From NCBI RefSeq assembly GCF_030815485.1, contig NZ_JAUSWV010000002.1:2728001-2792000 (forward strand): 64,000 bases of DNA. Reading direction: 5' to 3'. The stretch comes from Streptomyces rishiriensis (GTDB taxonomy: Bacteria; Actinomycetota; Actinomycetes; Streptomycetales; Streptomycetaceae). The notes under the pieces are model-generated. The model searched no databases. It saw only the letters and a program-made list of their open reading frames with translations, and was not told the origin of the DNA. Made by a program: the position numbers and the translations under genes. This document shows positions 46,403-64,000 of this stretch, in pieces. Within the stretch, counting starts at the first letter, position 1. Every line of letters starts with the position of its first letter.

Positions 46403-47563
46403 TTGGGGGGTTTCCGCAGAGCCGACCGCGATCGGGCCGTGTGCATCACCGGAATGGGCTGGACCACAGCACTGGGTGACGGCCTCGACGAGGTGTGGCA
46501 GCAGCTGACGAGTGGTCGCGTCGGCATCCGGGAGTCGGCGGGTGACGGTCGTCCGCCCGCCGCCCTGCTGACGGAGGGCGGGCCGGCCGGGCCTCCGTCC
46601 GAGCGGCAGATCTCGCTCGCGGTGGCCACCGCTGCCGCCGCCCTGCGCGACGCCGGCTGCCCGGCCTGGGACGTCGACACACTGGTGCTCGGCAGCAGCC
46701 TCGGCCCGCACCTGGACGACGCCGCCGAGATCTCGCCGCACACCCTGACGTCCGCCGTCGCCGCACAGCTGGGAGTGGCCGGGTCCGCCTCGGTGAGCAC
46801 CGCCTGCTCCTCCGGCGCCGACGCCGTCCTGGCCGGCGCGGCCCTGCTCACCGGCGGCGAGGCGGAACGCTGTCTGTGCGGTGGCATCGACCTGCTCACC
46901 GACGGCAAGCTGCTCGGACACCGGGCGCTCGGCACCCTGTCGGCGTCCGGCACCGTCCGCCCCTTCGACACCGACCGTGACGGCACCCTCTTCGGCGAGG
47001 GCGCCGGCTTCCTGCTGCTGGAGACCCGGGCCTCGGCGACGGCGCGCGGCGCGCGGATCCTGGGCGAGCTGCGCGGCTGGGGCGCGTCCAACGACGGCAC
47101 GGGCCCGACCGCCCCCGACGAGAGCGGGGCCGGCGCGGTCCTCGCCGTCCGGCGCGCCCTGGCCAGGGCCGGGGCCGACCCCCGGGACATCGCGGTGATC
47201 AACGCCCACGGGACCGGCACCCGCGCCAACGACACGGCGGAGGCGGCCTGCTACGCCACGGTCTTCGGCGCGCAGTCGGAGGCGGTCGTGTTCGCCACCA
47301 AGCCGGCCTTCGGCCACACCCTCGGCGCCACCGGCGCCCTGGAGGCGATCGCCCTGCTCCTCGCGCTGCGGCACGGCACCGTGCCCCCGCTCCCGCACAC
47401 CCGCACAGTCATGCCCGAACTGACCCTGCCGCTGGCCACGGACGGGCCCCGAAAGTTCACCGGCTCCCTCGGCATCAGCCTCACCCTCGGCTTCGGCGGC
47501 TTCAACACCTGCCTGCTGCTGTCGGCCGGCGAGCGCCGGACCGTGACAGGGGGTACCGCGTGA
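46403..47563 (+). CDS. Beta-ketoacyl synthase (FabF/KAS II-like), biosynthetic cluster
   Basis: A 386-residue stand-alone ketosynthase with a complete catalytic set: Cys135 (VSTACSSGAD), His269 (NAHGTGTRAND), Lys300 and His305 (KPAFGHTLGATGALE). It would condense an acyl-ACP with malonyl-ACP. A TTG start at 46403 follows GGGGGGA; a GTG at 46439 is the alternative. It heads a four-gene unit with four-base overlaps (truncated ketosynthase-like, ligase, thioesterase), so it probably makes or extends an acyl starter for the assembly line encoded further right. Confidence 0.9.
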   Translation: MGGFRRADRDRAVCITGMGWTTALGDGLDEVWQQLTSGRVGIRESAGDGRPPAALLTEGGPAGPPSERQISLAVATAAAALRDAGCPAWDVDTLVLGSSLGPHLDDAAEISPHTLTSAVAAQLGVAGSASVSTACSSGADAVLAGAALLTGGEAERCLCGGIDLLTDGKLLGHRALGTLSASGTVRPFDTDRDGTLFGEGAGFLLLETRASATARGARILGELRGWGASNDGTGPTAPDESGAGAVLAVRRALARAGADPRDIAVINAHGTGTRANDTAEAACYATVFGAQSEAVVFATKPAFGHTLGATGALEAIALLLALRHGTVPPLPHTRTVMPELTLPLATDGPRKFTGSLGISLTLGFGGFNTCLLLSAGERRTVTGGTA

Positions 47564-48108
47564 ACCCGGCCCAGTGGTGCCCAGCGGGCGCCGTGCTCAC
47601 CGGCTCCGCCCTGGTCGAGGCCGCCGACCCGGGCACGGTCGGGCGCCGCGTCCCCGGGGTGTACGCCGACCCCGTCGCCTGGCTGATGGCCGCGGCCGTG
47701 GCGGACGCCCTGGAGAACTGCGGCGACGCCGCGCCGAACCGCCCCGAGGAGGTAGGGGTCGTCGGGGTGAGCGAGCGGGCCACGCGCCACACCCTGCGCG
47801 CGCTCGCCGGGACCGTCCCGCGCGGCCGGATCTCCCCCATGCGGTTCGCGGGCGCCGGACCGGGCTCGCTCGTCGGCGTGGTCTGCTCGGCGTTCGGCTT
47901 CCACGGGCCGGTGTCGATGCTGCCCATGCCCCTCGCCCCGGCCGTGCCGCTCACCAGAGCCCTGTGCGGCGACTGGCTGCTCGGCGACCCGCCGAGCGCC
48001 GCACACGTCCTGGTCGTCACCCACGAAGTCGACGACGAAGGCAAGCACCGGGCGCACTGCCTGGTCGTCAGTGGGCCGACGCCCACGCGGAGGCCCCACC
48101 GAACATGA
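47560..48108 (+). CDS. Truncated ketosynthase-like protein without catalytic residues
   Basis: A 182-residue protein matching only the N-terminal half of a ketosynthase (VGVVGVSERATRHTLRAL, ISPMRFAGAGPGSLVGVVCSAFGFHGPVSMLPMP). The segment that should carry the nucleophilic cysteine reads GPVSMLPMPLAPAVPL, so it cannot condense. It overlaps both neighbours (ATGA), is free of stops and keeps normal codon usage, so it is unlikely to be decay. By analogy to chain-length-factor subunits it may pair with the preceding ketosynthase, but it is much shorter than those. Confidence 0.8.
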   Translation: MNPAQWCPAGAVLTGSALVEAADPGTVGRRVPGVYADPVAWLMAAAVADALENCGDAAPNRPEEVGVVGVSERATRHTLRALAGTVPRGRISPMRFAGAGPGSLVGVVCSAFGFHGPVSMLPMPLAPAVPLTRALCGDWLLGDPPSAAHVLVVTHEVDDEGKHRAHCLVVSGPTPTRRPHRT

Positions 48109-49634
48109 CCTCGCAGAACACCACCCCACGGAACGCGACTTCACCGGGCACCACTCCACCGGGCATCACTCCACCGAGCGCGGCTTCGTCGAGCGCGACG
48201 TCGCGGAACACGTCGTCGTCGCGCACGACGGCGCCGGTCCTGGCCGATCCGCTTCTCGACCCCGGCGTCGTCGGCGACTTCCTGGACCGGGTCGAGGATC
48301 TGTCCCGTTCCGAGGATCCGGGCCGCCCGGCCGGACTGCCCGCCCTCGTCGACCGGTTCACGGCGCTGCCGGCCCCGCCCGGCGCCGTCGTCGTCATCGC
48401 GCTGCCGAACGGCATCCGGGCGCTGCGTTTCTTCTTCGCCGTCGCACTGGCCGGGCACACCCCCGTGCTGCTCTCCCCGTCCACCCCGGTCTCCCGGGTC
48501 CGCGAGGTGGCCCGCGAGCTGGGCGCCTGCGCACTGGTCCGGGCGGCGATCCGGGCGGACGCGTACGGCGTCACCGATGTCACCCGCGCCGGCGGCGCCG
48601 ATGTCGGCCTCTTCACCGGCCGGCCGTATCTGCACCACGGGCCGGGCCACGTGATCCTGATGAGCTCCGGCACCTCCGGCATGGCCACCGGGTGTCTGCA
48701 CGGCATCGACGCCCTGTTGCGCAACGCCCGCCGCCACGGCCGTTCCCTCGGCCAGCGCGCCGCCGACACCGCCCTGGTCAGCCTGCCCGTCTACTACTCC
48801 TACGCGCTGGTCGCCCAGGTCCTGGGCGGTCTGGTGCACGGCTCGCGGCTGGTCATGGCCGGACCGCCGTTCTCGGTGGCCGACTACCTGGCCACGGTCG
48901 CCGGCCGGGGGGTCACCCTCTCCTCGCTCACCCCGAGCCTGGTCAAGTCCGTCGTCACCGCGGGCGGCGAACTGCCCTCGCCGCTGCGCACGCTGACCGT
49001 GGGCGGTCAGGCGCTGGACCCGTCGTACGTCTCCCGCCTGCTGAAACTCAATCCCGAGCTGGGGTTGTACATCACCTACGGGCTGACCGAGGCCGGACCG
49101 CGGGTGTCCACCCTCGCCGCCCACCGGGAGCCTCCGCACCGGCACGGATCGGTGGGCGTGCCGCTGGACGGCGTCGAGGTGCTCACGCGGCCGACCGACA
49201 CCGGGGAGCGCGAACTGCTCGTGCGCTCCGACACCGTCTACCGCAGGCGGGTCGGCGAGCCCGCGCCGTCCAAGCGCGGCGATCTGATCGAGCCGGGGCT
49301 GCTGGCCACCGGCGACATCGGGCACGTCGACGACGACGGGTACGTGTACGTGCACGGCCGCTCCTCGGACTTCGCGATGGTGCGCGGCGAGAAGGTGTCG
49401 ACCGCGACGGTGCGCCGCGCCGCCGAGTCCCTGCCCGGGGTGGTCCGTGCCGCGACCAGGATCGCCGTCGTGGACGACGACTCCGCCGTCCTCGAGCTCG
49501 ACGTCTTCGTCGACGACGCCGTACCGCCCTCCGAGGCGGAGATGCGACGGCATCTGCGGTCCCTGCTGACCCGTAACGAGCTGCCGGTGACGGTCCGGAT
49601 CCAGCCGCTTCGCGCGGGCGAGCACCACAAGTGA
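48105..49634 (+). CDS. AMP-dependent acyl/aryl ligase with unusual core motif
   Basis: A 509-residue member of the ANL superfamily. The first 45 residues are a Thr/Ser/Pro repeat leader. The A3 loop reads ILMSSGTSGMATGC (usually YTSGTTGxPKG), lacking the lysine; A5 is YGLTEAGPR; A7 TGDIGHVDDDGYVYVHGR; hinge FAMVRGEKVS. The C-terminal lysine falls at the very end (RAGEHHK). It probably activates a carboxylic acid for loading on a carrier protein. ATGA overlap upstream and GTGA overlap with the thioesterase show coupled translation. Confidence 0.83.
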   Translation: MTSQNTTPRNATSPGTTPPGITPPSAASSSATSRNTSSSRTTAPVLADPLLDPGVVGDFLDRVEDLSRSEDPGRPAGLPALVDRFTALPAPPGAVVVIALPNGIRALRFFFAVALAGHTPVLLSPSTPVSRVREVARELGACALVRAAIRADAYGVTDVTRAGGADVGLFTGRPYLHHGPGHVILMSSGTSGMATGCLHGIDALLRNARRHGRSLGQRAADTALVSLPVYYSYALVAQVLGGLVHGSRLVMAGPPFSVADYLATVAGRGVTLSSLTPSLVKSVVTAGGELPSPLRTLTVGGQALDPSYVSRLLKLNPELGLYITYGLTEAGPRVSTLAAHREPPHRHGSVGVPLDGVEVLTRPTDTGERELLVRSDTVYRRRVGEPAPSKRGDLIEPGLLATGDIGHVDDDGYVYVHGRSSDFAMVRGEKVSTATVRRAAESLPGVVRAATRIAVVDDDSAVLELDVFVDDAVPPSEAEMRRHLRSLLTRNELPVTVRIQPLRAGEHHK

Positions 49635-50353
49635 CGGGCCCGGAACCGCTCACCCTGTACTGCGTGCCGCACGCCGGCGGTTCGGCGCGCAGCTTCGTGC
49701 GCTGGCGACGCGAGCTGCCGGCCGGTCTGTGCGCCCGGCCGCTGGAGATCGCGGGCAAGGGTCTGCGCTCCCGTGAGCCGCGGGCGGCGACCCTGCGGAC
49801 GGCCGCCGCCGACCTCGCCCTCCGCGTGGATCCGCCCGGCCGGTACGCGCTCCTCGGGCACAGCATGGGCGGCCTGCTCGCCTACGAGACGGCTCTCGCC
49901 CTGCAGGACCTGGGCCGGCCCGCGCCCGAGTTCGTCGTGGTCGCCGCCGCCCGGCCGCCCCACCTTCTCGGAACCTCCCCCTACGGCCCCCTGCTCGCTC
50001 TGGGCGACGACGCCCTGCTCGACGCCCTCGCGGAGAACGGCCGGATCCCGAGGGAGGTACGCCGGTCACCGATGCGGCACCAGTTCGTGCCGGTCATCCG
50101 CGGCGACCTCGCGCTGCTCGCCGGCCACCGCCCCGACCCCGAGCCGCGGCCCCTGCCGAGCGACCTCGTCGTCTGGTACGGCGGCGGTGACGCGGACACC
50201 CCGCCCGAGGTGATGGCCGGCTGGCGGCACTACACCCGGCGCACGCACGTCGGCGAAGCCTTCGCCGGCGGCCACTTCTTCCTCCATGAACGCTTCGAGG
50301 AGGTCGCGGCCCGGCTGCTGGACCTGGCCGCGCAGCAGCGAGCGGACCGCTGA
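49631..50353 (+). CDS. Type II thioesterase
   Basis: A 240-residue alpha/beta hydrolase of the GrsT/RifR class. The nucleophile lies in LLGHSMGGLLAYE, the His in FAGGHFFLHER and the Asp in VWYGGGDAD. Such enzymes remove wrong or stalled acyl groups from carrier proteins. It starts with GTG overlapping the ligase stop and ends the left unit, convergent with the tryptophan-dioxygenase-like gene. Confidence 0.92.
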   Translation: MTGPEPLTLYCVPHAGGSARSFVRWRRELPAGLCARPLEIAGKGLRSREPRAATLRTAAADLALRVDPPGRYALLGHSMGGLLAYETALALQDLGRPAPEFVVVAAARPPHLLGTSPYGPLLALGDDALLDALAENGRIPREVRRSPMRHQFVPVIRGDLALLAGHRPDPEPRPLPSDLVVWYGGGDADTPPEVMAGWRHYTRRTHVGEAFAGGHFFLHERFEEVAARLLDLAAQQRADR

Positions 50354-50419: not shown

Positions 50420-51274
50420 TCAGTGCTGCACCGGGCAGCCGTTCCCGCCGCCGCGCACCGGGGCGTCGGTGTCGTGCCGGGTGCCGAGCAGCCAGTACGC
50501 GTCCTCCGCCGCCCGCCACAGTTCCGGAAAGAGCGCCAGCTGCGAGCGCGCCTCCAGGGTCGACAGGGACCGGCCGCCCAGGCTCTGCGGCAGCTCGAGC
50601 TCGTCGTCGCCCTCCTCGTTCCCCTTGCGCAGCCCGGGCTGACCGCCCAGCTGCGACCACACCATGATCAGGTGGTGCTGCTTCCAGCCGAGGACACTGC
50701 CGTCCAGCCGCAGCATCGCCTCCCGCACCAGGGCCAGCGACTGGGACGCGGGCGAGCGCGGGCCGTCGTAGCCGTCGTCCTGCTGGGCGATCACGTCCTG
50801 GAGTGACAACCCGGCGCGCTCCACCGCCTGCTCGTAGGCCTTCCACACCGGACGGGCCACCCGCCGCAGATTGCGGTAGCCGGGCGAGTCCAGGCCGGTG
50901 GCGTCCTCGGGCAGCGCGTTGCGCATCATCAGCAGGCTGTGCTGCGGCAGGTGGTCGGTGAGCAGCCGCACCGCCTGGACGGTGACCTCGCTGAGCCCGG
51001 TGGCCCGGTCGAACATGCGGACCGCCTGGTGGTACCGGTCCTGGTCCAGGTGTCCGATCGCCCGGCGCAGCTCGTAGTGGACCTGGACCCAGGCGTACTC
51101 GGTGATGAGGTGGGTGACCTGGAAGAAGCGCTGGTCGGGGTGTTCCGTCTCGCTCTCCGGGACCAGTGCGCCGAGTGCGTCGGTGAGGTGCAGGACGTTC
51201 TCGTAGTTGCTGCCCCGGTCGAAGTCGTAGGAGAGCAGGGCGTTGGGCTCGTCCGGGTTCAGCGAGCGCTTCAC
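50420..51274 (-). CDS. Divergent tryptophan 2,3-dioxygenase-superfamily haem protein
   Basis: A 284-residue TDO-fold protein. His55 (FFQVTHLITEYAW) aligns with the distal active-site His, and His200/His201 (GWKQHHLIMVW) with the haem-ligand region. The canonical THQ...ELWF motif is changed, and the GTGGSSG substrate loop after the haem His is replaced by GLRKGNEEGD. It is therefore not an ordinary kynurenine-forming TDO. Homologues in secondary metabolism include MarE, which makes a 2-oxindole from beta-methyltryptophan. With the beta-methyltryptophan-type genes directly upstream, an oxidation of that amino acid is the favoured role (inference). GTGA overlap with the methyltransferase gene. 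Confidence 0.85.
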   Translation of the reverse strand: MKRSLNPDEPNALLSYDFDRGSNYENVLHLTDALGALVPESETEHPDQRFFQVTHLITEYAWVQVHYELRRAIGHLDQDRYHQAVRMFDRATGLSEVTVQAVRLLTDHLPQHSLLMMRNALPEDATGLDSPGYRNLRRVARPVWKAYEQAVERAGLSLQDVIAQQDDGYDGPRSPASQSLALVREAMLRLDGSVLGWKQHHLIMVWSQLGGQPGLRKGNEEGDDELELPQSLGGRSLSTLEARSQLALFPELWRAAEDAYWLLGTRHDTDAPVRGGGNGCPVQH

Positions 51275-52314
51275 CGGGTCTCCTCTTTGGTGTACTCGAC
51301 CAGCCAGTGGCCGGGCAACTCGAACTTCCTGGCGTCCGTGAGGGTGAGCCCGACACCGGCGCCGAGGTCGCGCAGGTCCTCCATGCTGCGCTCGCGGCCG
51401 CCGAGCAGGACCAGCATCAGCAGGTCGGCGTAGCTCGCCATCACGGGGTCCTTGCCGCTGTCCAGCAGCCGCTCGACGACCACGACCCGCCCGCCGGGGA
51501 CGAGCGCCGCCGAGCAGCGGCCGAGGATGCGGGCGGCGTCCCGGTCGCTCCAGTTGTGCAGCGTGTTGGCGATCAGGTAGACGTCGCCGCCGGCGGGCAT
51601 CGGCTCGAAGAAGCTGCCCGCGACCAGCTCGCAGCGGTCGGACACCGGGGCGGTGATCCCGGCGGCCTCGTCGATCACGCTCGGCAGCTCCAGCAGCGTG
51701 CCGCGCAGCGCCGGGTGCTCGGTGAGCAGCTTCAGCAGCAGGGAGCCGTTGCCGCCGCCGACGTCCACGACGTGCCCCACCGACGCCCAGTCGTAGATAC
51801 GGGCCAGTTCCGGCACGAGCCGGTCCGCGATCCGGGCGATGCCCGTGTTGAAGGACTTCTCGATGTCGGGGTGCGCCTCCAGGTCCTTCCAGAAGGGCCG
51901 TCCGTGCGCCTGCTCGTACACCGGCAGACCGGTGCGTACGGCGTCCATGAGCCGGCCGACGGCCGGCTCGAAGCGGGCCTCCATGGGCCGGCTGGGGTCC
52001 TCGTAGTCCAGCCAGCGGCGCAGATTGCCCGGGTGGTCGCCGAGCAGCACCCGGCCCACGTCGGTGAGCTCGTACGTGCGCTGCCGCGACGCGGTGTCGG
52101 TGGTCTCCTCGAAGAGGCCGAGGAGGCTGACGTAGTGCAGGACGCGGCCCAGGGACTGCTCGTCGGTGCCGGTCTCGGCGGCCAGGGCGGCCGCGGTCCG
52201 GTGTCCCTGCTCGACCAGGTCGGGCAGGCGGAGTGTCGCGGTCACCCGCACGGCGGTGGGGGTGAACCCGGAGCCCAGGGCGAGGATCGTGTTCAACGGG
52301 TCTTGGCGGAACAC
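51271..52314 (-). CDS. O-methyltransferase (Methyltransf_2/Dimerisation2 type)
   Basis: A 347-residue SAM-dependent methyltransferase. An N-terminal winged-helix dimerisation region (RVTATLRLPDLVEQGHRTAAALAAETGTDEQSLGRVLHYV) precedes the SAM domain, with motif I VVDVGGGNGSLL and the catalytic-region pattern LIANTLHNWSDRDAARIL. The family methylates hydroxyl groups of small molecules. The GTG at 52314 suits the GGAGG ribosome site better than the TTG three bases upstream. It lies between the aminotransferase gene and the TDO-like gene in the same operon, so it probably tailors the oxidised amino acid. Confidence 0.88.
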   Translation of the reverse strand: MFRQDPLNTILALGSGFTPTAVRVTATLRLPDLVEQGHRTAAALAAETGTDEQSLGRVLHYVSLLGLFEETTDTASRQRTYELTDVGRVLLGDHPGNLRRWLDYEDPSRPMEARFEPAVGRLMDAVRTGLPVYEQAHGRPFWKDLEAHPDIEKSFNTGIARIADRLVPELARIYDWASVGHVVDVGGGNGSLLLKLLTEHPALRGTLLELPSVIDEAAGITAPVSDRCELVAGSFFEPMPAGGDVYLIANTLHNWSDRDAARILGRCSAALVPGGRVVVVERLLDSGKDPVMASYADLLMLVLLGGRERSMEDLRDLGAGVGLTLTDARKFELPGHWLVEYTKEETR

Positions 52315-52372
52315 CAAAAGCCTCCAGTCGTTCTCGTTCGGTCGGTCGTCCGCCGGGCGTTCCGGTGGAAAT

Positions 52373-53593
52373 TCAGGAGCATTCCTCGATCGCGTCGAGG
52401 GCGTCGAGGAACCGCGTCAGGTCCTCTTTCCCGCCGAGCGACGTGCGGAGGTAACCGGGAAATCCGAACAGTCCCGCATTGCGAACGAGAATGCCGAAAT
52501 CCGCGGCGAGACGATCCTGTGCACGGGCGCAGTCCCGGGCCGCGACGGCGACGAAGTTCGTCACGGAGGGCAGATGCGCGCGCCCCCGGCGGTCCAGCTC
52601 GCGGACGAACCAGCGCCGCCGCTCGGCGGTGGACCGGCGTACCCCGTCGACGAAGTCCCGGTCGGCGAGGGCGGCGGTCGCGGCCGCCTGCGCGAGCCGG
52701 TTCACGCTGAAGGGCAGGGCGCGCAGGGTCGCCCGCAGCCCGGCGATCAGGTCGGGCCGTCCGACGGCGTAGCCGACACGCAGCGCGGCCAGGCCGTAGG
52801 CCTTGGAGAAGGTGCGCAGCGCGACGACCGGCGCGTCCGCCTCCAGCAGGTCGCGGGCGCAGGGGAGGTCCGGGTCGGCGAACTCCATGTACGCCTCGTC
52901 GAACACCAGCGGGACCCCGCTGCGGCCGGAGACGTCGACCAGTGCGGCCAGTTCGTGCCGGGTGAGGGCCGCGCCGCTGGGGTTGTGCGGGTTGCACAGA
53001 TAGCCGATCCCGTGTGCGGGCAGCCGCTCGGCGAACCCGGCGGCGTCGACGGCCGTGCCGGCCGGCGGTACGGCGGTGCAGCCGCGCCCGATGAGTTCCA
53101 GACAGGTCCGGTAGCCGGGGAACGTGCCGTCGGTGACGAGGCCGGGAAGGCCGCGGTCGCCGAGGGTCAGGGCGGTGGCCAGGACGAGTTCGTCGCTGCC
53201 GTTGGCGACGGCGATGTGGTCCGGGCCGACGCCCCAGTGCGCGGCGAGCGCCCGCACCAGTTCCTGCCGCTCGGGATCCGGATAGACGTTGACCCGCGCC
53301 AGTTCACTCTCGGCCGCCCGGATCGCCGCCCTGCTTGCGCCGTGGGGGCTCTCGCTCAGGTGCAGCCGGATCAGATCGTCGGCGCCGGGAACACTCGCGT
53401 TGAACGCCTTGCCGACGGCCGGAGCCGCTTCCCCTGCGGTGGGGGCCCCGTGCCCGGCGGCGGCCACGTCCTCAGCGGCGGACTCCACGGGTACGGCGCC
53501 GGGGGCCGCTCGCCCGGGCGTCGGGCCCGCTTCCCCACCGCCCGCGGCCGGCGTGCCGACGGCGGAGGCCGGCTGCCCCGCCGGCGGGGTCAC
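52373..53593 (-). CDS. PLP aminotransferase, candidate for beta-methyltryptophan formation
   Basis: A 406-residue fold-type I aminotransferase (HisC-like). Core motifs: YLCNPHNPSGAAL, VFDEAYMEFADP and the PLP lysine in TFSKAYGLAALRVGYAVG. The first 65 residues are a Pro/Ala/Gly-rich extension not seen in the fold. It overlaps the cupin gene (GTGA), which overlaps the methyltransferase gene; this aminotransferase/cupin/methyltransferase trio matches the combination known to convert L-tryptophan to beta-methyltryptophan through the keto acid in maremycin and streptonigrin pathways. Substrate assignment is inference. Confidence 0.85.
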   Translation of the reverse strand: MTPPAGQPASAVGTPAAGGGEAGPTPGRAAPGAVPVESAAEDVAAAGHGAPTAGEAAPAVGKAFNASVPGADDLIRLHLSESPHGASRAAIRAAESELARVNVYPDPERQELVRALAAHWGVGPDHIAVANGSDELVLATALTLGDRGLPGLVTDGTFPGYRTCLELIGRGCTAVPPAGTAVDAAGFAERLPAHGIGYLCNPHNPSGAALTRHELAALVDVSGRSGVPLVFDEAYMEFADPDLPCARDLLEADAPVVALRTFSKAYGLAALRVGYAVGRPDLIAGLRATLRALPFSVNRLAQAAATAALADRDFVDGVRRSTAERRRWFVRELDRRGRAHLPSVTNFVAVAARDCARAQDRLAADFGILVRNAGLFGFPGYLRTSLGGKEDLTRFLDALDAIEECS

Positions 53594-53979
53594 AGGCGGT
53601 CCCCGAGGAGGACGCCGAAGCAGTAGCTGCCCACCTCCGCCTCGAGGGTCAGGAAGCAGTGCTCGCTGCCGGCCGGGATCCGCATGACGGCCGGTGAGAG
53701 CAGTTCATGACGTCTGCCGTCGAGTTGGACCTCGATGCGGGCGCCGCCCTTGTTCGGGGAGACCAGCAGGTAGAGCTCGTCGACCGGGTGGGTGTGCGGC
53801 GCGGCGACCGGCTTGCCGACCAGGGTGCTGAGTTCACCGCCGGCGAGCTGGACGGGCAGGCCGCCGAACATGTCCGCGGTGAGGTAGAAGGGCGCGGGCT
53901 GGTGATGCCCGGCCACGGCGAGGGGAATGGGCAGACCCTCCACGATCTCCGGGTCGGCGGGACATCGCTCGGTCGTCAC
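53590..53979 (-). CDS. Cupin protein, candidate stereo-switch of beta-methyltryptophan pathway
   Basis: A 129-residue single-domain cupin (APHTHPVDELYLLVSP, then RIPAGSEHCFLTLE). The metal-binding His pair (HTHP) with Glu in VDELY and the distal His in GSEHC fit cupin motifs 1 and 2. In the maremycin pathway the small cupin MarH acts with the aminotransferase to set the alpha/beta stereochemistry of the methylated keto acid. GTGA overlaps on both sides make the three-gene set obligatorily coupled. Confidence 0.83.
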   Translation of the reverse strand: MTTERCPADPEIVEGLPIPLAVAGHHQPAPFYLTADMFGGLPVQLAGGELSTLVGKPVAAPHTHPVDELYLLVSPNKGGARIEVQLDGRRHELLSPAVMRIPAGSEHCFLTLEAEVGSYCFGVLLGDRL

Positions 53980-55049
53980 TGGGCCTCCAGGACGAACAGG
54001 TAGGTGTGCGGGGCGCCGAAGGGAATCGTGCGGCGCAGGTGCAGCCCGCCCTCGTGGAAGAGGTTCTCGTACTCCTCGCGCGTGTAGACGGGGACGCCCA
54101 TCAGGGCGTGGGCGAGCTCGAAGCCGCTGGAGAAGACGGGCAGCGTGTCGTTCTCGCCGCGCGGCCGGACGGTGGTGTCGGCGAGCAGGAAGGTGTGCGC
54201 GCGCGGGAACGCCTTGCGCAGCGCCGGGATGACGTCCGAGCGGGTGGCGGGGTCGACGAGCAGGTCGTGCAGGAACATGAAGCTCATCGCCACGTCCACC
54301 TGGTCGGCGCCCTCGATGCGGCGGCCCCGGAAGAGGACGTCGAGAACGTCGGCGCAGATCGGCTGGACCCGGTCGGCCAGTTCGTGGCGCTCGACGGTGC
54401 CGGCCGCCAGCGCGGTGGCCGAGGCGCTGATGTCCAGGCCCAGACCCCGGGCGCCGGGGCGGGACTTGACGAGGCGGCACACGCGCTCGCTGATCCCGCT
54501 GCCGAGGTCGGCGATGACGGCGAAGTCGAGCGCGGCGATCTGCTCGTCGAGCAGGTTCCGCATCAGCGCCATGTCGGCCTGGGCCGAACCGAGCGCCACC
54601 ATGCCCTCGTCACGCAACACGTCCTTGCCGAAGGCGCGTTCCCCTCGCGCGATGGACGCGGCATTGGCGAAAACGTCGTGGTATCCACCCACGCCCCAGG
54701 TGAAGAACCCTATTTTCCGGCGGAGTTCACCCCAGGCAGGCCTGGGCGTCACCCGGTCGTCGCGGACCTCGAGATACCCGAAGGCCTCGGCAGCCGACAC
54801 CAGGTGACGGAAAACGCTTTCGTCCAACTGCCGGCGCCAGCAGTAATCGGGCACGTCGAGCCGGTCGGCCTCGTCGAACCAGGCGAACAGTCCCAGCTGC
54901 TCCAGGGCGAAAACGACATGAGTGGAGATGAACCCGTTGAACGCGGTGTCGGCATCGAGCGGGGTGTTCGCGGCGCCCTGCCATTCGGCGGGAAGGAAAA
55001 CGCTTTCACCTAAGTCTTGGAGGCTGTCACGGGAAAGGGGAGCTGTCAC
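53976..55049 (-). CDS. SAM-dependent methyltransferase, candidate C-methyltransferase
   Basis: A 357-residue protein: an N-terminal helical domain (TAFNGFISTHVVFALEQLGLFAWFDEADRL) and a class I SAM domain (motif I FAVIADLGSGISERVC; ARGLGLDISASATALAAG; post-I MSFMFLHDLL). The GTG at 55049 follows GGAAGG. Immediate coupling to a cupin and an aminotransferase suggests C-methylation of the beta-carbon of an indolepyruvate-type keto acid, as for MarI in maremycin biosynthesis. Confidence 0.84.
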   Translation of the reverse strand: MTAPLSRDSLQDLGESVFLPAEWQGAANTPLDADTAFNGFISTHVVFALEQLGLFAWFDEADRLDVPDYCWRRQLDESVFRHLVSAAEAFGYLEVRDDRVTPRPAWGELRRKIGFFTWGVGGYHDVFANAASIARGERAFGKDVLRDEGMVALGSAQADMALMRNLLDEQIAALDFAVIADLGSGISERVCRLVKSRPGARGLGLDISASATALAAGTVERHELADRVQPICADVLDVLFRGRRIEGADQVDVAMSFMFLHDLLVDPATRSDVIPALRKAFPRAHTFLLADTTVRPRGENDTLPVFSSGFELAHALMGVPVYTREEYENLFHEGGLHLRRTIPFGAPHTYLFVLEAQ

Positions 55050-55106
55050 GGGAAGTGCCTTCCTTGTTTCGGTCGAATGCCGAGCTCCGGTCGGGCCGAT
55101 TCCGAA

Positions 55107-55192: not shown

Positions 55193-55570
55193 TTACACGC
55201 GGGGCGAGGTGGCGGCGATACGGGCCACCGCCACCGCCAGTTCGCGCACGGTGGGGTGGTCGAAGAACAGCCGGTTGGGCAGCCGGACACCGAGCCGCCG
55301 GCGGAGCCGGACGAGCACCTGCGTGGCTTTCAGGGAGTGACCGCCCGCCTCGAGAAAGGGGGTGTCGTCATCGAAGTCGTCATGCCCGAGCACCTCGACC
55401 CACGCGGCTCTGACCTGGTCTTCCATGGCCTGCTCGGGTGTCGTCACGGGCAGCCCGGAAGCCGGCCCGGAAACTGGGGCGGAAGCCGGCCCCGAAGCTG
55501 GTGCGGAAGGCAGCCCGGACGATGGTCCGGCATAAACATCCGGACGTGTTTTCACGCCGTCGTCGCTCAA
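55193..55570 (-). CDS. Stand-alone peptidyl/acyl carrier protein
   Basis: A 125-residue carrier protein. The phosphopantetheine serine is Ser79 in FLEAGGHSLKATQ. The first 45 residues are a Ser/Gly/Pro/Ala repeat leader (SGPAS units). A TTG start at 55570 follows GGGGGAA; an internal GTG is possible. As first gene of the reverse unit it may hold the amino acid while the following enzymes modify it, or carry the product to the NRPS. Confidence 0.88.
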   Translation of the reverse strand: MSDDGVKTRPDVYAGPSSGLPSAPASGPASAPVSGPASGLPVTTPEQAMEDQVRAAWVEVLGHDDFDDDTPFLEAGGHSLKATQVLVRLRRRLGVRLPNRLFFDHPTVRELAVAVARIAATSPRV

Positions 55571-56166: not shown

Positions 56167-56276
56167 CCATCATTCACATGATGTCGTCCTCCGCTGCCCG
56201 CCACACAGCGCGCACCTGTGCGCGCACCGCTGTGCGGGCACCGGCAATTCGTCACGAGATGCAGCAGGGAAACGCG

Positions 56277-57272
56277 TTGAGGCATGCGATTCTGGGCGCC
56301 GGGGGAGTCGGGCTCGCCCTCGGAGCGGCGCTGGCCCGCGCGGGCCACGAGGTCGTGCTGGTGATGCGGGAGTCCTCACGAGCCCGCTACCGCGGCGTGA
56401 TCGACGTGCACAGCAAGCTGCACGGCGACCTCGCCGTGCGGGCACGGGCGGTGGAGCGGCTCCAGGAGCCGGTCGACGTCCTGTGGGTGACGGTGAAGGC
56501 GCCCGCGCTGGACGCCGCGATGGCCCGGGTCGCCCCACGGCTGACCCCGGACTCGGTCGTCCCCCTGCTCAACGGACTCGACCATCCGCGAACGCTGCGG
56601 GCCAGGTTCGGGCCCCGCCAGCTCGTCGGCTCGATCCTGATCGAGGCGGAACGCACCGCACCCGGCCGGGTGATCTGGAACTCGCTGTACGCCGAGGTCA
56701 GCCTCGCGACCACGGAGACAGGCGCGGGCGCCGGGGCCGATGCGGGTCACGGGGCCGATGCGCAGCCCGGGGCCGGGGGCAGACGTCTCGGCCGGCTCGC
56801 CGAGCTCCTCGCCGACGCGGGTCTCGGCTGCACCCCGGAGCGCGACGCGGCGAGCGTCCTCTGGCGCAAGCTGGTCCTCCTGCTGCCGTTGGCGCTGGCC
56901 ACCACCGCGGCCGACGGCCCCCTGGGCATCGTCCGCCGCCGGCCCGAGCTGTCCGCCCTGCTGCGCGACGCCGCCCGGGAAGCCTGTGCCGTCGCCGCGG
57001 CGGACACCGTCGCCGTCGACGACCGCAACCTGCTGCACACCCTGGACACCCTGCCCGGCCGGACCGACACCTCCCTGCACCGGGACGTCACCGCCGGGGT
57101 CCGGCCGACCGAACTCGCCGCGCTCACCGAGCCGGTGCTGCGCCGCGCCCGCGACCATCACGTGGCCGTGCCCGCGCTGGCCGAACTGGCGCGCAGGGCC
57201 GCCGAGCGGGAGCGGCAGGCGGAGGTTCCCGCGCCGCACCGATCCACCTACCGCAAGGGAGAAACGTCATGA
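56277..57272 (+). CDS. Ketopantoate reductase (ApbA/PanE)-family dehydrogenase
   Basis: A 331-residue NAD(P)-dependent reductase. The Rossmann motif HAILGAGGVGLALGAALA lies at the very N-terminus; VTVKAPALDAAM, PLLNGLDH and SVLWRKLVLLLPLA follow the family. A TTG at 56277 with AGGGA upstream puts the Rossmann strand at residue 3; an ATG at 56259 is the alternative. In secondary metabolism such enzymes reduce alpha-keto acids to hydroxy acids or make methoxy/hydroxy-malonyl-type units. It overlaps the ACP gene by four bases. A Gly/Ala/Asp-rich loop at about 150-165 is probably expanded repeat. Confidence 0.85.
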   Translation: MRHAILGAGGVGLALGAALARAGHEVVLVMRESSRARYRGVIDVHSKLHGDLAVRARAVERLQEPVDVLWVTVKAPALDAAMARVAPRLTPDSVVPLLNGLDHPRTLRARFGPRQLVGSILIEAERTAPGRVIWNSLYAEVSLATTETGAGAGADAGHGADAQPGAGGRRLGRLAELLADAGLGCTPERDAASVLWRKLVLLLPLALATTAADGPLGIVRRRPELSALLRDAAREACAVAAADTVAVDDRNLLHTLDTLPGRTDTSLHRDVTAGVRPTELAALTEPVLRRARDHHVAVPALAELARRAAERERQAEVPAPHRSTYRKGETS

Positions 57273-57577
57273 CAGTCGGTTCGGGCGAGACACTGGACGA
57301 AACGCTGGAGGCGACCCTCAAGGAGATCCTCGTCGAGGACCTCTTCCTTGACGTGCCCACCGAACGCATCGGGGACGACGACGGCCTCCAGGACGTACTG
57401 GGCCTGGACTCCCTCGGCTTCGTGGAGCTGCGTGCCCAGTGCGAGCAGCGTTTCGGCGTGGCCATCACGGACGCCGAGTTCACCCCGCTCCACTTCCACT
57501 CGGTGCGCACGGTGGCCAATCTGGTGCGCACCCTGCGTACGGGCGCCGCCGGCGAGCACCTGGCGGTCCCGCAGTGA
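57269..57577 (+). CDS. Acyl carrier protein
   Basis: A 102-residue acidic ACP. The phosphopantetheine serine is Ser48 in VLGLDSLGFVELRAQCEQRFGV. Overlaps of four bases with the preceding reductase and following NRPS genes show coordinated synthesis. The stand-alone form suggests that it carries the starter made by the ketosynthase/ligase unit or a tailored extender unit. Confidence 0.92.
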   Translation: MTVGSGETLDETLEATLKEILVEDLFLDVPTERIGDDDGLQDVLGLDSLGFVELRAQCEQRFGVAITDAEFTPLHFHSVRTVANLVRTLRTGAAGEHLAVPQ

Positions 57578-60500
57578 GAGAGCCGGCTTCCTCCGAGCAG
57601 TTGGACGTCTGGCTCGCCTGCCAACGCGAGCCGGAGTCCGACCGCTACAACGTCACCGTCGACCTGGAATTCACCCCGACCGTCGACGTACCGGCGCTGC
57701 GTGCCGCGCTGACCGATGTGCTGACCGCCCATCCGGCTCTGCGGTGTGCCTTCGCCACCGAGGGCGGCGAGCTGTGGCGCAGCACGGAGGCCGACCCGCC
57801 GATGGCCTTCGTCACCGACCGCCTCCCCGGCCGCTACGACCGCGCGCAGGCCCTCGCCCGTGCGGTCGTCGCCGGCCGCGCGCCCTTCGACCTGGCCACC
57901 GCGCCGCTGGTGCGGGCGACGCTTTTGACCGGGGAGGGCGGCGCACTGCTCGCCGTCACGATGCACCACATCGTCTCCGACGGCTGGTCCAGCCGGATCC
58001 TCGCCGAGGACCTGGTGACGGCGTACCGCTCCCGCACAGCGGGCGCCCCGGGCCCTGCCCCGCGCAGGTCGCCCGACGCCGGGGCCGACGCCACTGCCGG
58101 CACCAGTGCCGACGCCACTGCCGACATCGTTGCCGAGACCGGTCCACGTGCCGGTACGGGTACCGGTGCCGGTGCCGACGGTGGTGCCGCCGCCCTCTCC
58201 CCCCGGGCCGTTGCCGGGGCCGAGACGCCCGCGCCGGTCGGTCGCGACGCCGACGCCGGCGTTGAGGCCGACGCCGACGGCGATGCCGACGCGGACGCCG
58301 AGGCGGAGGCCGAGGCCGAGGAGTACTGGACCTCCGTCCTGCGCGACGCCCCCGCCTCCCTCGCGCCGCCGCACGACCTGGTGCCGGAGGACGGTTTCCC
58401 CGGTCCCTCCGGCCGGGTGGAGGTGCTCCTGCCCGCCGAGGTGCACGCGGGCGTCCAGGCGCTGGCCGCCGCCGAACGCGGCTCCCCCGCCGTCGTGCTG
58501 CTCGCCGCCTGGTCCGTGCTGCTGCACGCGTGGGCCGGAGAGTCGGAGGGCACCTTCGGCATGGTCTTCGCCGGCCGCCGGTACGCCGACGCCGAGCGCG
58601 TCGACCTGTTCAGCCGTGCGCTGCCGCTGCGCGACCGGACGTCCCCCGACGACCGCTTCCTGGAGGTGGCGGCCCGGCTGCGCGAGCAGATGCTCGACGC
58701 GATGGAACACGCCCACCTGCCCGTGCGGCGGCTGCGGGCGATCCGCAGCGCGCGGGCGAACGGTCCGGGCGTCGAGCGGACGGTGTTCATGTACACCCCC
58801 GCCTACGAGGACGCGTGGCAGGCCGGCGAGGTGACCGTCCGCCGCTTCGACCACCCGGACGAGACGACGAAGTACGAGTTCTCCCTCAACGTCCTGGAGG
58901 GCGCGGCCGGCACCCGGCTGTGCGTCTACTACGACACCGCCCGCTACCTTCCCGCCACCGCGCAACTGTTCGCCGAGGAGCTGCGCGAACTGCTGGCCCG
59001 CGCCGTGGCCGCCCCGGACAGCACCTGCGGAGACCTCCTCGCCGCCTGCGACCCGGGCCTGTCCGAGGTCGCCGCGCACGGCGCGCCCGTCGCGTCACCG
59101 GCGCCGAGCATCCCCGGGCTGGTCCTGCGGCACGCCGCCGCCCGCCCGGACGCCGTCGCCGTACGCCATGGGCAGCGCACCCTCGGCTACGGCGAACTCG
59201 CCGCGCGCGCGGGTGAGGTGGCCGGCTGGCTGCGCGACCGGGGTGTCGGGCCCGGCGACACCGTGGCGCTGCTCCTCGCCCCCGGCGTCGAGACGCCGGT
59301 GTTCTGGCTGGCGTCCGCCCTGGCCGGCGCCGCCTACCTCCCCCTGGACCCCGCCTATCCACAGGCCCAGCTCCAGCTGATCGTGGACGACGCCCGTCCC
59401 GCGGTCCTCGTCGTCGACCCGGACTGCGGACAGTCCCTCGACGTGCCGGAGGGCACCGCCGTACCGGTCGGCGAGGCGCTCGAACGGGCCCGCGGCCGGT
59501 CCGCCCCCGAGGTCGCGTACGACGACACAGCGACCCTCTGCGTCCTCTACACCTCCGGCACCACCGGGCGGCCCAAGGGGGTCGTCCTGCCGCACCGCGG
59601 GCTGGCCCGGCTCTTCGTACGCCCCGACTTCCTCCCGCTGGACGAGACGGACGTCGTCGCGCAGCTGTGCCCGCTCAACTTCGACGGCGCCAGCTACGAG
59701 ATCTGGGGCGCCCTCACGCACGGCGCGCAGCTGGTCGTCCTCGACAAGCACCTGGTGCTCAGCCCCCGCGAGATGCGCACGGTGGTCCGCGAGCGCGGGG
59801 TGAGCACGCTGCTCGTGACGACACCGCTGCTCAACCGGATCATCGAGGACGCCCCGGACCTGCTCCAGTCGCTGCGGCGGGTGTACTTCGGCGGCGAGCT
59901 GATCTCCGTACGGCACATGCGCCGTGCCCTGCGCTGGTCCCGGCCGGGCGTCCTGCTGCACAGCTACGGTCCCACCGAGAACTCCTTCACCTCGACCTGG
60001 TACCCGATCACCGACCTCGCGCCGAACGCCAGGACGGTCCCGATCGGCCGACCGGTGCCCGGCACCGAGGTGCGGGTGGTGCAGGAGGGCGGCATCCGCC
60101 CGGTCCCGCGCGGTGTCCCGGGTGAACTCCTGCTCGGCGGGGCGGGGTTGGCCGACGGCTATCTGAACGCGCCCGGGATGACGGCGGACCGTTTCGTCAC
60201 CGACGGCACGACCCGGCTCTACCGGACCGGTGACCGGGTGCGCTGGCGCCCGGACGGCCTGCTGGAGTTCATCGGCCGCAAGGACAACCAGGTGAAGATC
60301 CGCAGCCAGCGCGTCGAACTCGGCGAGGTGGAAGCGGTCTTGGACGCGCACCCGGCCGTCGAGTCGGTCTTCGTCACGACACGCGTCAACCGTCGTGACG
60401 AGAAGGAGATCGTCGCCTACGCGGTGGCCGCGCCCGGCACGGACGCCGACGAGATCGGCCGGCACGCCCGGCTGCGGCTGCCCGCCTTCGCCGTACCCAG

Positions 60501-61821
60501 CCACCTGCTGCTGGTCGGGGAACTTCCGCTCACCCCGACCGGCAAGATCGACCGGCGTCGGCTGCCGGATCCGGAGCGGACCTCCCGGGCCGCTGGGCCC
60601 GACCCCGCTCCGGTCCCCGCCTCGGCCCTCGCACCGGCACCCCCTTCCGTGACCTCCGTGACCTCCGTGACCCCAGCCTCCGAGGCCTCCGGGACTTCCG
60701 TGGCTTCCGTGACGGATGGCGTGCGGGCCGCCTGGCGGGCGGTGCTGGAGCACGACGGATTCGGGTCGGACCGCAACTTCTTCGACGCCGGCGGCCATTC
60801 GCTGCTGCTGGTGAAGCTGCGGGAGCACCTGCGGCTGACGACCGGCGCCGACGTCCCGGTCATCGACCTGCTGCGCCACGTCACGGTCCACGAGCAGGCC
60901 CGCCTGATCGCCACGGCCCACCGCCCCGGGGGCGGAACGGCGGCCCCGGCCAGCGTCGTGCCCCGAAGGCCCCTCGATCGCGCGCCGTCGGGCAAAACCG
61001 TCCCGGCGCCGGTGTCGCCCCCCGGTCCCCGGATCGTCGCCCTGTCCGCCGCCACCGCCGACGCCCTGGCCGTCGCCCGCGAGCGGCTGGCCGCCCATCT
61101 GGAGGCGAACCCGGACCTGGCGCTGGCGGACGTGGCCCACACGCTGGACGTGGGCCGTCGGCACTTCGGGCACCGGTGCGCCGTCGTGGCGTCCGACCCG
61201 GCCGAGGCGGTACGCGCCCTGCGCGCCCCGCACACCGCGACGCCCGCCGTCCCCGGTTCGCCCCCGGCCGTGGTGTTCGCCTTCGCGGACGGCCCGCCGG
61301 ACGGCGCCGACCGGGCCGCCGGACCGCTCACCCGCCAACTGCGTCTGGCCGACCGGTTCGCCGAACGGGGCGTGACCCCGGCGGCGGTGTACGGCGTGGG
61401 GACGGGACGGTTCGCGGCCGCGGTGGTGAGCGGCGCGCTCACGGCCGAGGAGGGTGTACGGCTGGCGGCCGACGGGGCCGCCGCGCGCGTCCCGGTACCC
61501 CGCCGTCCCCGCCTGCTGTGGTCCACGGCGCTGGGTCCGCTCCTCCCCGACGGGCCCGCCCCGCAGGAACAGCACCTGTCGGCCGAGGCCGAGCCGGCCA
61601 AGCTGCTCCGGGCGGCCGGTGACCGGCTCGGCGAGGTGGCCGTCCTCGACATCGCGGCCGTCGACCCCGACGAGCGGGCCCTGCTCACGGCCCTCGCGGC
61701 CCTGTGGTGCCAGGGCGCCGAGGTGCGGCTGACACCGCCCGGCCCGGCCCGCCGGCTGCGCCTGCCCGGCCACCCCCTGTCGTGGGCGTTCTCCGCGTCC
61801 CCGCTCCCCACAGATTCCTGA
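57574..61821 (+). CDS. NRPS (condensation-adenylation-carrier) with degenerate acyltransferase-like C-terminus
   Basis: A 1415-residue protein. The C domain has an intact HHIVSDG at 131-137, interrupted after it by an acidic/Ala low-complexity insertion (about 155-248). The A domain (about 512-1000) has YTSGTTGRPKG at 658-668, SYGPTENSF and the A10 Lys in PTGKIDR; the FDGASYE strand keeps the Asp that binds an alpha-amino group. The carrier serine is Ser1076 (DAGGHSLL). Residues 1150-1415 match the PKS ketosynthase-acyltransferase linker and a shrunken AT-like region in which GHSxG reads GVGTG (1274-1278), so it cannot load extenders. GTG start overlapping the ACP stop. Confidence 0.88.
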   Translation: MREPASSEQLDVWLACQREPESDRYNVTVDLEFTPTVDVPALRAALTDVLTAHPALRCAFATEGGELWRSTEADPPMAFVTDRLPGRYDRAQALARAVVAGRAPFDLATAPLVRATLLTGEGGALLAVTMHHIVSDGWSSRILAEDLVTAYRSRTAGAPGPAPRRSPDAGADATAGTSADATADIVAETGPRAGTGTGAGADGGAAALSPRAVAGAETPAPVGRDADAGVEADADGDADADAEAEAEAEEYWTSVLRDAPASLAPPHDLVPEDGFPGPSGRVEVLLPAEVHAGVQALAAAERGSPAVVLLAAWSVLLHAWAGESEGTFGMVFAGRRYADAERVDLFSRALPLRDRTSPDDRFLEVAARLREQMLDAMEHAHLPVRRLRAIRSARANGPGVERTVFMYTPAYEDAWQAGEVTVRRFDHPDETTKYEFSLNVLEGAAGTRLCVYYDTARYLPATAQLFAEELRELLARAVAAPDSTCGDLLAACDPGLSEVAAHGAPVASPAPSIPGLVLRHAAARPDAVAVRHGQRTLGYGELAARAGEVAGWLRDRGVGPGDTVALLLAPGVETPVFWLASALAGAAYLPLDPAYPQAQLQLIVDDARPAVLVVDPDCGQSLDVPEGTAVPVGEALERARGRSAPEVAYDDTATLCVLYTSGTTGRPKGVVLPHRGLARLFVRPDFLPLDETDVVAQLCPLNFDGASYEIWGALTHGAQLVVLDKHLVLSPREMRTVVRERGVSTLLVTTPLLNRIIEDAPDLLQSLRRVYFGGELISVRHMRRALRWSRPGVLLHSYGPTENSFTSTWYPITDLAPNARTVPIGRPVPGTEVRVVQEGGIRPVPRGVPGELLLGGAGLADGYLNAPGMTADRFVTDGTTRLYRTGDRVRWRPDGLLEFIGRKDNQVKIRSQRVELGEVEAVLDAHPAVESVFVTTRVNRRDEKEIVAYAVAAPGTDADEIGRHARLRLPAFAVPSHLLLVGELPLTPTGKIDRRRLPDPERTSRAAGPDPAPVPASALAPAPPSVTSVTSVTPASEASGTSVASVTDGVRAAWRAVLEHDGFGSDRNFFDAGGHSLLLVKLREHLRLTTGADVPVIDLLRHVTVHEQARLIATAHRPGGGTAAPASVVPRRPLDRAPSGKTVPAPVSPPGPRIVALSAATADALAVARERLAAHLEANPDLALADVAHTLDVGRRHFGHRCAVVASDPAEAVRALRAPHTATPAVPGSPPAVVFAFADGPPDGADRAAGPLTRQLRLADRFAERGVTPAAVYGVGTGRFAAAVVSGALTAEEGVRLAADGAAARVPVPRRPRLLWSTALGPLLPDGPAPQEQHLSAEAEPAKLLRAAGDRLGEVAVLDIAAVDPDERALLTALAALWCQGAEVRLTPPGPARRLRLPGHPLSWAFSASPLPTDS

Positions 61822-61833: not shown

Positions 61834-62847
61834 ATGTCGCACGTACGTGGCGAAGCCGCCGTTCTCGTCGAACCCGGGCGCCTGGAGGTGGCGGAGGTCG
61901 CCTTCCGGGAGCCGGCCGAGGGCGAGGTCCTCGTCCGCAACACCGTGGCCGCCATCTGCGGCAGCGATGTGCACCGGGTGCGCGCCGAGTCCCCCTTCTT
62001 CCGGGACATGCGCGACCACCCCTATCCCTGCCCGGCCGGCTACCCGGGGCACGAGGGCGTCGGAGAGGTCGTCGAGAGCCGGTCGGCCCTCTTCTCGCCG
62101 GGCGACCTGGTGCTCACCGTGCCCAACCACGCCTACATGGCGTCGTTCGCCCGCTACCAGACGATCGCCGACCGGTTCCTGCTGCCGGTGAAGGGCACCG
62201 GGGCGCCGACCGTCCAGCTGATGGCGCAGCAGCTCGGGACGGTCGTCTTCGCGCTGAACCGGTTCTGGCCGGAGCCCGTGCCGGAGGGGTCGACGGCCGC
62301 CGTGGTCGGCGTCGGCTCGGCGGGACTGCTGTTCCAGCAGCTGCTCAAGCACCGCGGCTTCGAGAAGGTCGTCGCGGTCGACCTGGAGCCGGGGCGGCTG
62401 GCGGTGGCCCGTTCCCTCGGCGCGGACGCGACCGTGCACGTGCCCGGGCAGAGCGCCGAGGAGGTCGTCATGGAGGCGACCGGCGGCAAGGGCGCCGACC
62501 TGGTCGTCGAGGCGGCGGGCACCGACGGGGCGCGCGAGCACGCGATGCGGATGGTCGGGCAGCACGGCCGGCTGGGCTTCTTCGGCATGCCCGAGGACTA
62601 CGACATGCGGATCCCGTACGCCCATCTCTTCGTCCGCCAGGCGCAGTTGATCACCGCGGTCGGCGGCGCCCAACTGGAACCGGGGCTTCCTTCCTTCCGG
62701 ACCGCGCTGGAGCTGATCGGGGACGGCTCGATCCGGGTCGACGACCACATCACCCACACCTTCGACATCAAGAACATCGCCGACGCCTTCGACCTCGCGC
62801 ACAACCGGCAGGACGACGTCGTCAAGATCGCGCTCACTTTCGGCTGA
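61834..62847 (+). CDS. Medium-chain alcohol dehydrogenase
   Basis: A 337-residue MDR-family enzyme. The catalytic zinc ligands are suggested by AICGSDVH and YPGHEGVGEV; the structural-zinc cysteine lobe is absent. The nucleotide motif is VVGVGSAGLLFQQL. It lies between the NRPS and PKS genes with small gaps and a good ribosome site (GAAGGAAGG). It may reduce or oxidise an intermediate or release product; substrate unknown. Confidence 0.87.
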   Translation: MSHVRGEAAVLVEPGRLEVAEVAFREPAEGEVLVRNTVAAICGSDVHRVRAESPFFRDMRDHPYPCPAGYPGHEGVGEVVESRSALFSPGDLVLTVPNHAYMASFARYQTIADRFLLPVKGTGAPTVQLMAQQLGTVVFALNRFWPEPVPEGSTAAVVGVGSAGLLFQQLLKHRGFEKVVAVDLEPGRLAVARSLGADATVHVPGQSAEEVVMEATGGKGADLVVEAAGTDGAREHAMRMVGQHGRLGFFGMPEDYDMRIPYAHLFVRQAQLITAVGGAQLEPGLPSFRTALELIGDGSIRVDDHITHTFDIKNIADAFDLAHNRQDDVVKIALTFG

Positions 62848-62860
62848 CGGGAGGTCAGGC

Positions 62861-64000
62861 ATGTCCGAACTCACCGCGCATTCGCCCCCGGTCGCCGTCA
62901 TCGGTGTCGGCGGCCGTTTCGCCGACGCGCCCGACGTCGGGGCGTTCTGGGACAACCTCGTGGCGGGCCGGGACTGCTTCCGGCGGGAGCCGGTCCCGGT
63001 CGTGGAGGACCTGGGCGAGGACCGGCTGCGGGTCCACTCGTGGGGGATCGCCCCGCACCGGGACGCCTACGACCACGCACTCGTCGGCGTCGAGGGCCTG
63101 GACCCGCAGCACGGCATCCTCCAGGAGTCGCTGTGGCAGGCGGCCGAGGACGCCGGGGTCAGGCTGTCGGCGATCGCCGACCGGACCGCCGTCTACGCCG
63201 GCTGCGCCCGCACCAAGCATGTGCCGCGGGCCGCCTTCGACGACGTGGTGCACGTCGACCCGACGTTCGCCGGGCCCTACTTCTCCTATCTCCAGGACCT
63301 GTGGGGCGAGTCGCTGATGCTGGACTCGGCGTGCGCCACCTCTACGGTGGCCGTGCAGCTCGCCTGTCAGAGCCTGCGGGCGCACGCCTGCGACTACGCG
63401 CTGGCCGGGGCGGTGGCCATCCAGGAGAACGCGGACGGCTCCTACCTGCGGACCCCGCGCAGCATCTACTCCACCGAGGGCATCGTGCGCCCCTTCGACC
63501 GCCGCCACAACGGGGTGGTGCCCGGCGACGGCTCCGGGGCCGTCCTGCTGCGCAGACTGGACGACGCCCTGCGCGACGGCGATCCGGTCTACGCCGTCGT
63601 CCGGGGCGGCGCCGTCACCAACGACGGGCGGGCCAAGCCCGGTTTCGTCATCCCGGGCGTCGACGGCAAGGTCCGCGCGGTGCGCCGGGCGCTGGAGGCG
63701 GCGGGGCTGACCGGGGCCGACGTCGACTACGTCGAGACGCACGGTGTCGGCATCCCGCTGAACGACCAGATCGAGGCGACCGCGCTGATCGAGGCCCTCG
63801 GCACCGACGGGCCGCCGGTGGCGGTCGGCTCGGTGAAGGCCTCCGTCGGCCACTGCGACACCGCCGCCGGCATGGCGGCCCTGATCAAGACGTGCCTCGC
63901 GATCGACCGGGGCTTCCTGCCCGCGACCCCGAACACCGAGGTTCCCATCGAGGAGTTCACCGGACGCGGCGAACGCTTCGGCATCCTCCCCGAAGGCCGC
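62861..64000 (+). CDS. Modular type I PKS, N-terminal ketosynthase domain (runs off window)
   Basis: The first 380 codons of a PKS beginning MSELTAHSPPVAVIGVGGRFADAPDVGAFW. The ketosynthase is complete up to the window edge with Cys158 (LDSACATST), His294 (VETHGVGIPLND) and His331 (SVKASVGHCDTAAG), so it should condense. The GPGD-type motif reads GDGSGAVLLRR. The ATG at 62861 follows GGGAGG. No stop occurs up to position 64000, so further domains lie to the right. It follows an NRPS ending in an AT-like remnant, suggesting NRPS-to-PKS transfer. Confidence 0.93.
   Translation, partial: MSELTAHSPPVAVIGVGGRFADAPDVGAFWDNLVAGRDCFRREPVPVVEDLGEDRLRVHSWGIAPHRDAYDHALVGVEGLDPQHGILQESLWQAAEDAGVRLSAIADRTAVYAGCARTKHVPRAAFDDVVHVDPTFAGPYFSYLQDLWGESLMLDSACATSTVAVQLACQSLRAHACDYALAGAVAIQENADGSYLRTPRSIYSTEGIVRPFDRRHNGVVPGDGSGAVLLRRLDDALRDGDPVYAVVRGGAVTNDGRAKPGFVIPGVDGKVRAVRRALEAAGLTGADVDYVETHGVGIPLNDQIEATALIEALGTDGPPVAVGSVKASVGHCDTAAGMAALIKTCLAIDRGFLPATPNTEVPIEEFTGRGERFGILPEGR

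Follow-up and report, generated by a model that had tools for sequence, protein, structure and literature searches.

A hybrid NRPS-PKS locus of Streptomyces rishiriensis is very probably the known maremycin/FR900452 gene cluster

The right-hand end of a 64,000-nucleotide stretch of Streptomyces rishiriensis DNA (the window, contig positions 2728001-2792000) carries ketosynthase, NRPS and TDO-like oxidase genes side by side, which raises the question of whether they encode a new pathway or one already described. The original prediction had called the locus uncharacterised and had read it as an acyl starter joined to a modified tryptophan. FR900452/maremycin-type products are assembled from a methylated, oxidised tryptophan, S-methylcysteine and a small five-membered ring. 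We conclude that the cluster is already known and not a new one; it is, with near certainty, an orthologue of the maremycin/FR900452 cluster marA-Q.

Genes were called by GC3 and reading frame in the window and in DNA fetched on its right (stretch L006). The whole cluster comprises 17 genes, from window position 46403 to ext. 67073, in the published order marA-Q. They form three blocks, with four genes running rightward (46403-50353), six leftward (50420-55570) and seven rightward (56259-67073):

marA, 46403..47563, + strand, ketosynthase, AmcF type; 91% to TP-A0890
marB, 47560..48108, + strand, cyclization factor (CYF), AmcG type; 92% to TP-A0890
marC, 48105..49634, + strand, adenylate-forming 2-oxoglutaryl-ACP ligase, AmcH type; 91% to TP-A0890
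marD, 49631..50353, + strand, type II thioesterase (Pfam Thioesterase 3.5e-28); 89% to TP-A0890
marE, 50420..51274, - strand, heme-dependent 2-oxindole-forming monooxygenase (TDO-like); 98% to TP-A0890
marF, 51271..52317, - strand, SAM methyltransferase, O-methyltransferase fold (Pfam Methyltransf_2 5.9e-38); 97% to TP-A0890
marG, 52373..53593, - strand, aminotransferase, beta-methyltryptophan cassette (Pfam Aminotran_1_2 7.6e-47); 88% to TP-A0890
marH, 53590..53979, - strand, cupin, beta-methyltryptophan cassette; 97% to TP-A0890
marI, 53976..55049, - strand, C-methyltransferase, beta-methyltryptophan cassette (weak TIGR04543 match); 92% to TP-A0890
marJ, 55193..55570, - strand, stand-alone peptidyl carrier protein (Pfam PP-binding 5.2e-19); 84% to TP-A0890
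marK, 56259..57272, + strand, ketopantoate-reductase-like oxidoreductase (TIGR00745 153.7 bits, cut-off 141.35); 88% to TP-A0890
marL, 57269..57577, + strand, acyl carrier protein, AmcB type; 95% to TP-A0890
marM, 57574..61821, + strand, NRPS C-A-T with KS-AT linker and acyltransferase remnant; 88% to TP-A0890
marN, 61834..62847, + strand, zinc-binding alcohol dehydrogenase family (Pfam ADH_zinc_N 9.1e-20); 97% to TP-A0890
marO, 62861..ext. 64102 (window part ends 64000), + strand, stand-alone ketosynthase, 413 aa; 96% to TP-A0890
marP, L006:152-580, right of the window, SnoaL-like; 97% to TP-A0890
marQ, L006:626-3073, right of the window, A-MT-A NRPS; 88% to TP-A0890

The genes lie where the original prediction had placed them, and they show both the high GC3 typical of genuine Streptomyces genes and clear domain matches. 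Its range, 46403-64000, was right in its start and its genes but too short, as the 3' end of the ketosynthase gene, the SnoaL-like gene and the A-MT-A NRPS gene lie past the right edge of the window. Similarly, the genes that it named are present, but the carrier protein (55193-55570), the ketopantoate-reductase-like protein (56259-57272) and the alcohol dehydrogenase (61834-62847) had gone unnamed, and the PKS that it saw at the right edge is indeed a ketosynthase but a lone one. Several gene joins overlap by four bases (for example 48105-48108 and 57574-57577), in keeping with co-translation. The cluster is bordered on its left by an MreB gene and on its right by a peptidase gene that looks M28-like on inspection; the genome as a whole measures 9.07 Mb.

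A search of public genomes for the TDO-like protein returned seven loci. Two of these are 98% identical, and one of the two is NZ_BBYG01000020 from Streptomyces sp. NBRC 110468 (TP-A0890), a proven FR-900452 producer (PMC4611700). Gene-by-gene comparison shows that all 17 genes are collinear with those of TP-A0890 and on the same strands, with protein identities of 84-98%, and the chromosomal flanks (MreB on the left, an M28-type peptidase on the right) are common to both strains. The cluster therefore has a database counterpart of identical gene order and known product, and the earlier statement that maremycin/FR900452 share only its amino-acid part does not hold. TP-A0890 is another genome, and probably another species, from which the proteins differ at 2-16% of amino acids, most in marJ, marM, marK, marG, marQ and marD. 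Our direct comparison is with the TP-A0890 cluster and the MarE structure; the tie to the maremycin producer B9173 comes through PMC4611700, which reports orthologues of all of marA-Q, >98% identical to those of B9173, at orf152 to orf168 of TP-A0890 scaffold13.

The letters A-Q used here are predicted correspondences, given to the genes by order and count. This order fits the published letters: the fifth gene is MarE, the seventh to ninth are marG-H-I, named as the beta-methyltryptophan cassette in PMC5454204, the thirteenth is MarM, the NRPS of the TP-A0890/B9173 comparison (PMC4611700), and the seventeenth is MarQ.

MarE shares 278 of 284 residues with crystallised MarE (PDB 9CA3), the engineered C280S being among the six that differ, and the DATG loop, the SLGGR loop and the His201 ligand are all present. 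Assignment as an ordinary TDO was rejected on a score of 44.4 against a cut-off of 390.7 and on this near identity to MarE; the activities of MarE and MarQ are published. The marG-H-I cassette is complete, at 88%, 97% and 92% to TP-A0890, so that the predicted beta-methyltryptophan set with a TDO-like oxidase is confirmed by the cassette and by the 98% match of MarE to PDB 9CA3. MarH is identical to the cupin protein PDB 6J4B at 122 of 123 residues and also matches a second cupin structure, PDB 7EQK, which may belong with streptonigrin. The streptonigrin cluster has a cassette of the marG-H-I type too; to our knowledge, the remainder of that cluster is unrelated to mar. MarI has a weak match to 2-ketoarginine methyltransferase (TIGR04543), and neither MarH nor MarI has a Pfam name; their identity is taken from the structure match and the comparison with the producer. 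The predicted O-methyltransferase, MarF, has that fold but is probably an indole N-methyltransferase. In the proposed scheme, MarG-H-I would form beta-methyltryptophan, MarE would monooxygenate it to the 2-oxindole, and MarF would probably methylate the indole nitrogen.

FR900452 contains a cyclopentenone, and the genes that had been read as an acyl-starter set instead match the enzymes of a cyclopentenone cassette. MarA matches NCBIfam NF058662 (AmcF, 475.7 bits, cut-off 325), MarB NF058659 (AmcG, 159.8 bits, cut-off 80), MarC NF058661 (AmcH, 593.4 bits, cut-off 370) and MarL NF058660 (AmcB, 115.1 bits, cut-off 80); AmcB, AmcF, AmcG and AmcH homologues are thus present together, all above curated cut-offs. 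On these matches the acyl-starter reading of the ketosynthase, CYF, ligase and ACP was dropped. What had been called a truncated ketosynthase-like gene does lie at 47560..48108, but it encodes a cyclization factor of the AmcG type, placed by its NCBIfam model with no match to MarB in Pfam or PDB. The active-site Cys of MarA, in STACSSG, is kept in all nine clusters compared. The same ACP, ketosynthase, CYF and 2-oxoglutaryl-ACP ligase are shared with the type II PKS-like cassette of cispentacin and amipurimycin. In vitro, with Amc proteins only, AmcH puts 2-oxoglutarate onto the ACP and the AmcF-AmcG pair performs one malonate extension and then closes the cyclopentenone, so that the product from 2-oxoglutarate and malonate is 3-oxocyclopent-1-ene-1,2-dicarboxyl-ACP (PMC10698177). 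By domain matches, none of the 17 mar genes encodes a hotdog decarboxylase like AmcE, which makes mar a 'minimal type' of the cassette as defined in that paper. The same paper lists B9173, an FR900452 producer, with a 'minimal type' Amc set and calls its pathway unknown (PMC10698177). Together with the Amc-type matches, this report points to a set that most likely supplies the FR900452 cyclopentenone rather than a chain starter. By analogy, MarC would load 2-oxoglutarate onto MarL in the FR900452 branch, and MarA and MarB would carry out a single malonate extension followed by closure to the cyclopentenone.

The remaining building block would be provided by MarQ, which is reported to be an A domain interrupted by an S-methyltransferase, with adenylation and S-methylation demonstrated (PMC11355689) and Cys, methyl-Cys and some Ser as reported substrates. 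In the protein studied here, the methyltransferase (residues 219-339) lies ahead of the a3 motif FTSGSTG at residue 431, so that the A domain is interrupted between a2 and a3. Thiocoraline TioN has the same interrupted architecture but is part of another assembly line. MarQ would activate and S-methylate Cys and probably charge the product on the free carrier protein MarJ. MarM (C-A-T), whose A-domain pocket region is nearly identical to that of its TP-A0890 counterpart, would activate the tryptophan-derived unit and join it to S-methylcysteine. Release as a diketopiperazine would then give the maremycins. For FR900452, MarO would probably condense the cyclopentenone with the chain, aminoacyl or peptidyl, that MarM carries, and the Cys amine would close the ring to the piperazinone. 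MarD, a thioesterase, probably acts in editing or in release. The domain matches uphold one part of the original prediction, a hybrid NRPS-PKS line in which an acyl part made by a ketosynthase is joined to a unit of the beta-methyltryptophan type.

The tail of MarM (61021-61818) may offer a clue to how the two halves are joined. After the carrier domain it contains a KS-AT linker (Pfam CurL-like, 1.8e-21) with no ketosynthase, followed by an acyltransferase remnant (Acyl_transf_1 0.00036) whose end aligns with post-AT linkers and in which the catalytic GHSxG is replaced by GVGTG. The acyltransferase Ser is lost in every cluster with a readable MarM tail, and the distant G158 cluster has a very weak carrier-like remnant after that tail (E 0.077). 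MarO is the complement: a bare ketosynthase (Pfam ketoacyl-synt N and C) that stops at the point at which a linker would start, its Cys/His/His regions conserved in every cluster holding the gene. This active-site comparison left out the S. phaeoluteigriseus rows for marB, marM and marO. A linker without a ketosynthase and a ketosynthase without a linker suggest, as the simplest reading of the two sequences, that the ketosynthase was cut from an ancestral C-A-T-KS-AT(-ACP) protein. As the acyltransferase is no longer functional, MarO would need another source of nucleophile, for which the cyclopentenone carried by the ACP MarL is the obvious candidate. We put forward the complete proposal tentatively, as possible though not probable: that MarO was excised from such a megasynthase, that the linker and dead acyltransferase left on MarM perhaps serve as a dock, and that MarO adds the MarL-bound cyclopentenone, not malonate, to the aminoacyl or peptidyl thioester. 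No description of the split architecture or the coupling step was found in the literature searched (Duan 2018, Lan 2016 and Huang 2018 fell outside its scope), and the MarM/MarO split may be one detail perhaps not yet described. Comparing the nine clusters singles out one step, the joining of the cyclopentenone to the tryptophan unit, in the FR900452 pathway, which PMC10698177 describes as unknown.

How well do other explanations fare against this evidence? An undescribed hybrid NRPS-PKS cluster coupling a modified tryptophan to an acyl starter would account for a ketosynthase, ligase, thioesterase, NRPS and beta-methyltryptophan set all lying in one hybrid line. It is contradicted by the collinear TP-A0890 locus, which corresponds gene for gene and is assigned to FR-900452, and the genes taken for a starter set are those of the AmcB/F/G/H cyclopentenone cassette; we give it almost no credence. 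Decay of a mar cluster into a non-functional copy, to which the dead acyltransferase in the MarM tail might point, is also very improbable, given that all 17 frames are open in the window strain and that the remnant is also found in the producer TP-A0890 and so belongs to a working system.

A diverged mar-type cluster making another congener, such as an analogue with a different amino acid or oxidation level, deserves somewhat more attention. Identity to TP-A0890 is only 84-92% for marA-D, G, J, K, M and Q, and MarQ reportedly tolerates more than one substrate. However, not a single gene has been lost, gained or moved, and the MarM pocket region and the two MarE loops are unchanged, and we judge this reading unlikely. 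The orthologous marA-Q cluster remains the preferred reading, with FR900452/maremycins as the products expected from its gene content, although the cluster may be silent in this strain. This spares a search for a novel product, as heterologous expression would most likely yield FR900452/maremycins, and adds one more complete mar cluster on a single contig.

Complete mar clusters were found in TP-A0890, OV320, S. aurantiogriseus, S. actinomycinicus, S. bobili, G158 and Allokutzneria. Six other clusters carry the full set of 17 genes in collinear order, so chance grouping is not an issue. The Allokutzneria cluster has the 17 genes with the block marA-D inverted in place (beside marE, on the opposite strand), which indicates that gene arrangement can vary to some extent beyond Streptomyces. 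An eighth further cluster runs from marA to marM and then meets a contig edge. In S. phaeoluteigriseus, marB (L059:5589-6133) is split over two frames by a frameshift or a draft-assembly error, and MarM is interrupted by a run of N.

Across the genus, 20 of the 393 genomes sampled contain a MarB-like gene, as do 3 of 395 in a class-wide sample. Most of those in the genus have only 35-42% identity and so probably sit in other clusters. Such MarB/AmcG-like genes, seen at about 35-42% identity in some 15 of the sampled genus genomes (L069-L083), may mark other cyclopentane-type clusters. MarE-like proteins of 44-50% identity occur in four further genus genomes (L086, L087, L088, L089), one of which, G125, has a MarB-like gene too, on another contig. 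A second locus in Allokutzneria sp. A3M-2-11 (L058:7554-12114 and 15123-16157) holds a marA-D-like set at 54-68% identity adjoined by marE-like and marF-like genes and a glycosyltransferase gene, with an M1 peptidase gene between. No beta-methyltryptophan cassette or NRPS genes were seen within the 18 kb read, and the locus possibly makes another product joining a cyclopentenone to an oxidised tryptophan.

Left of the cluster in the window, 36609-38339 encodes a trypsin-like protein that also contains a VMAP-C domain. A 1113-aa frame at 39444-42785, for which a Pfam search gave no match, is conserved next to the mar genes of TP-A0890, OV320 and S. aurantiogriseus. The stretch 42807-44374, in which a cytokinin-dehydrogenase-like FAD protein gene (42916-44406) sits, is absent from TP-A0890, where the flanks join within 2 bases; it is a gain or loss peculiar to one strain, beside the cluster.
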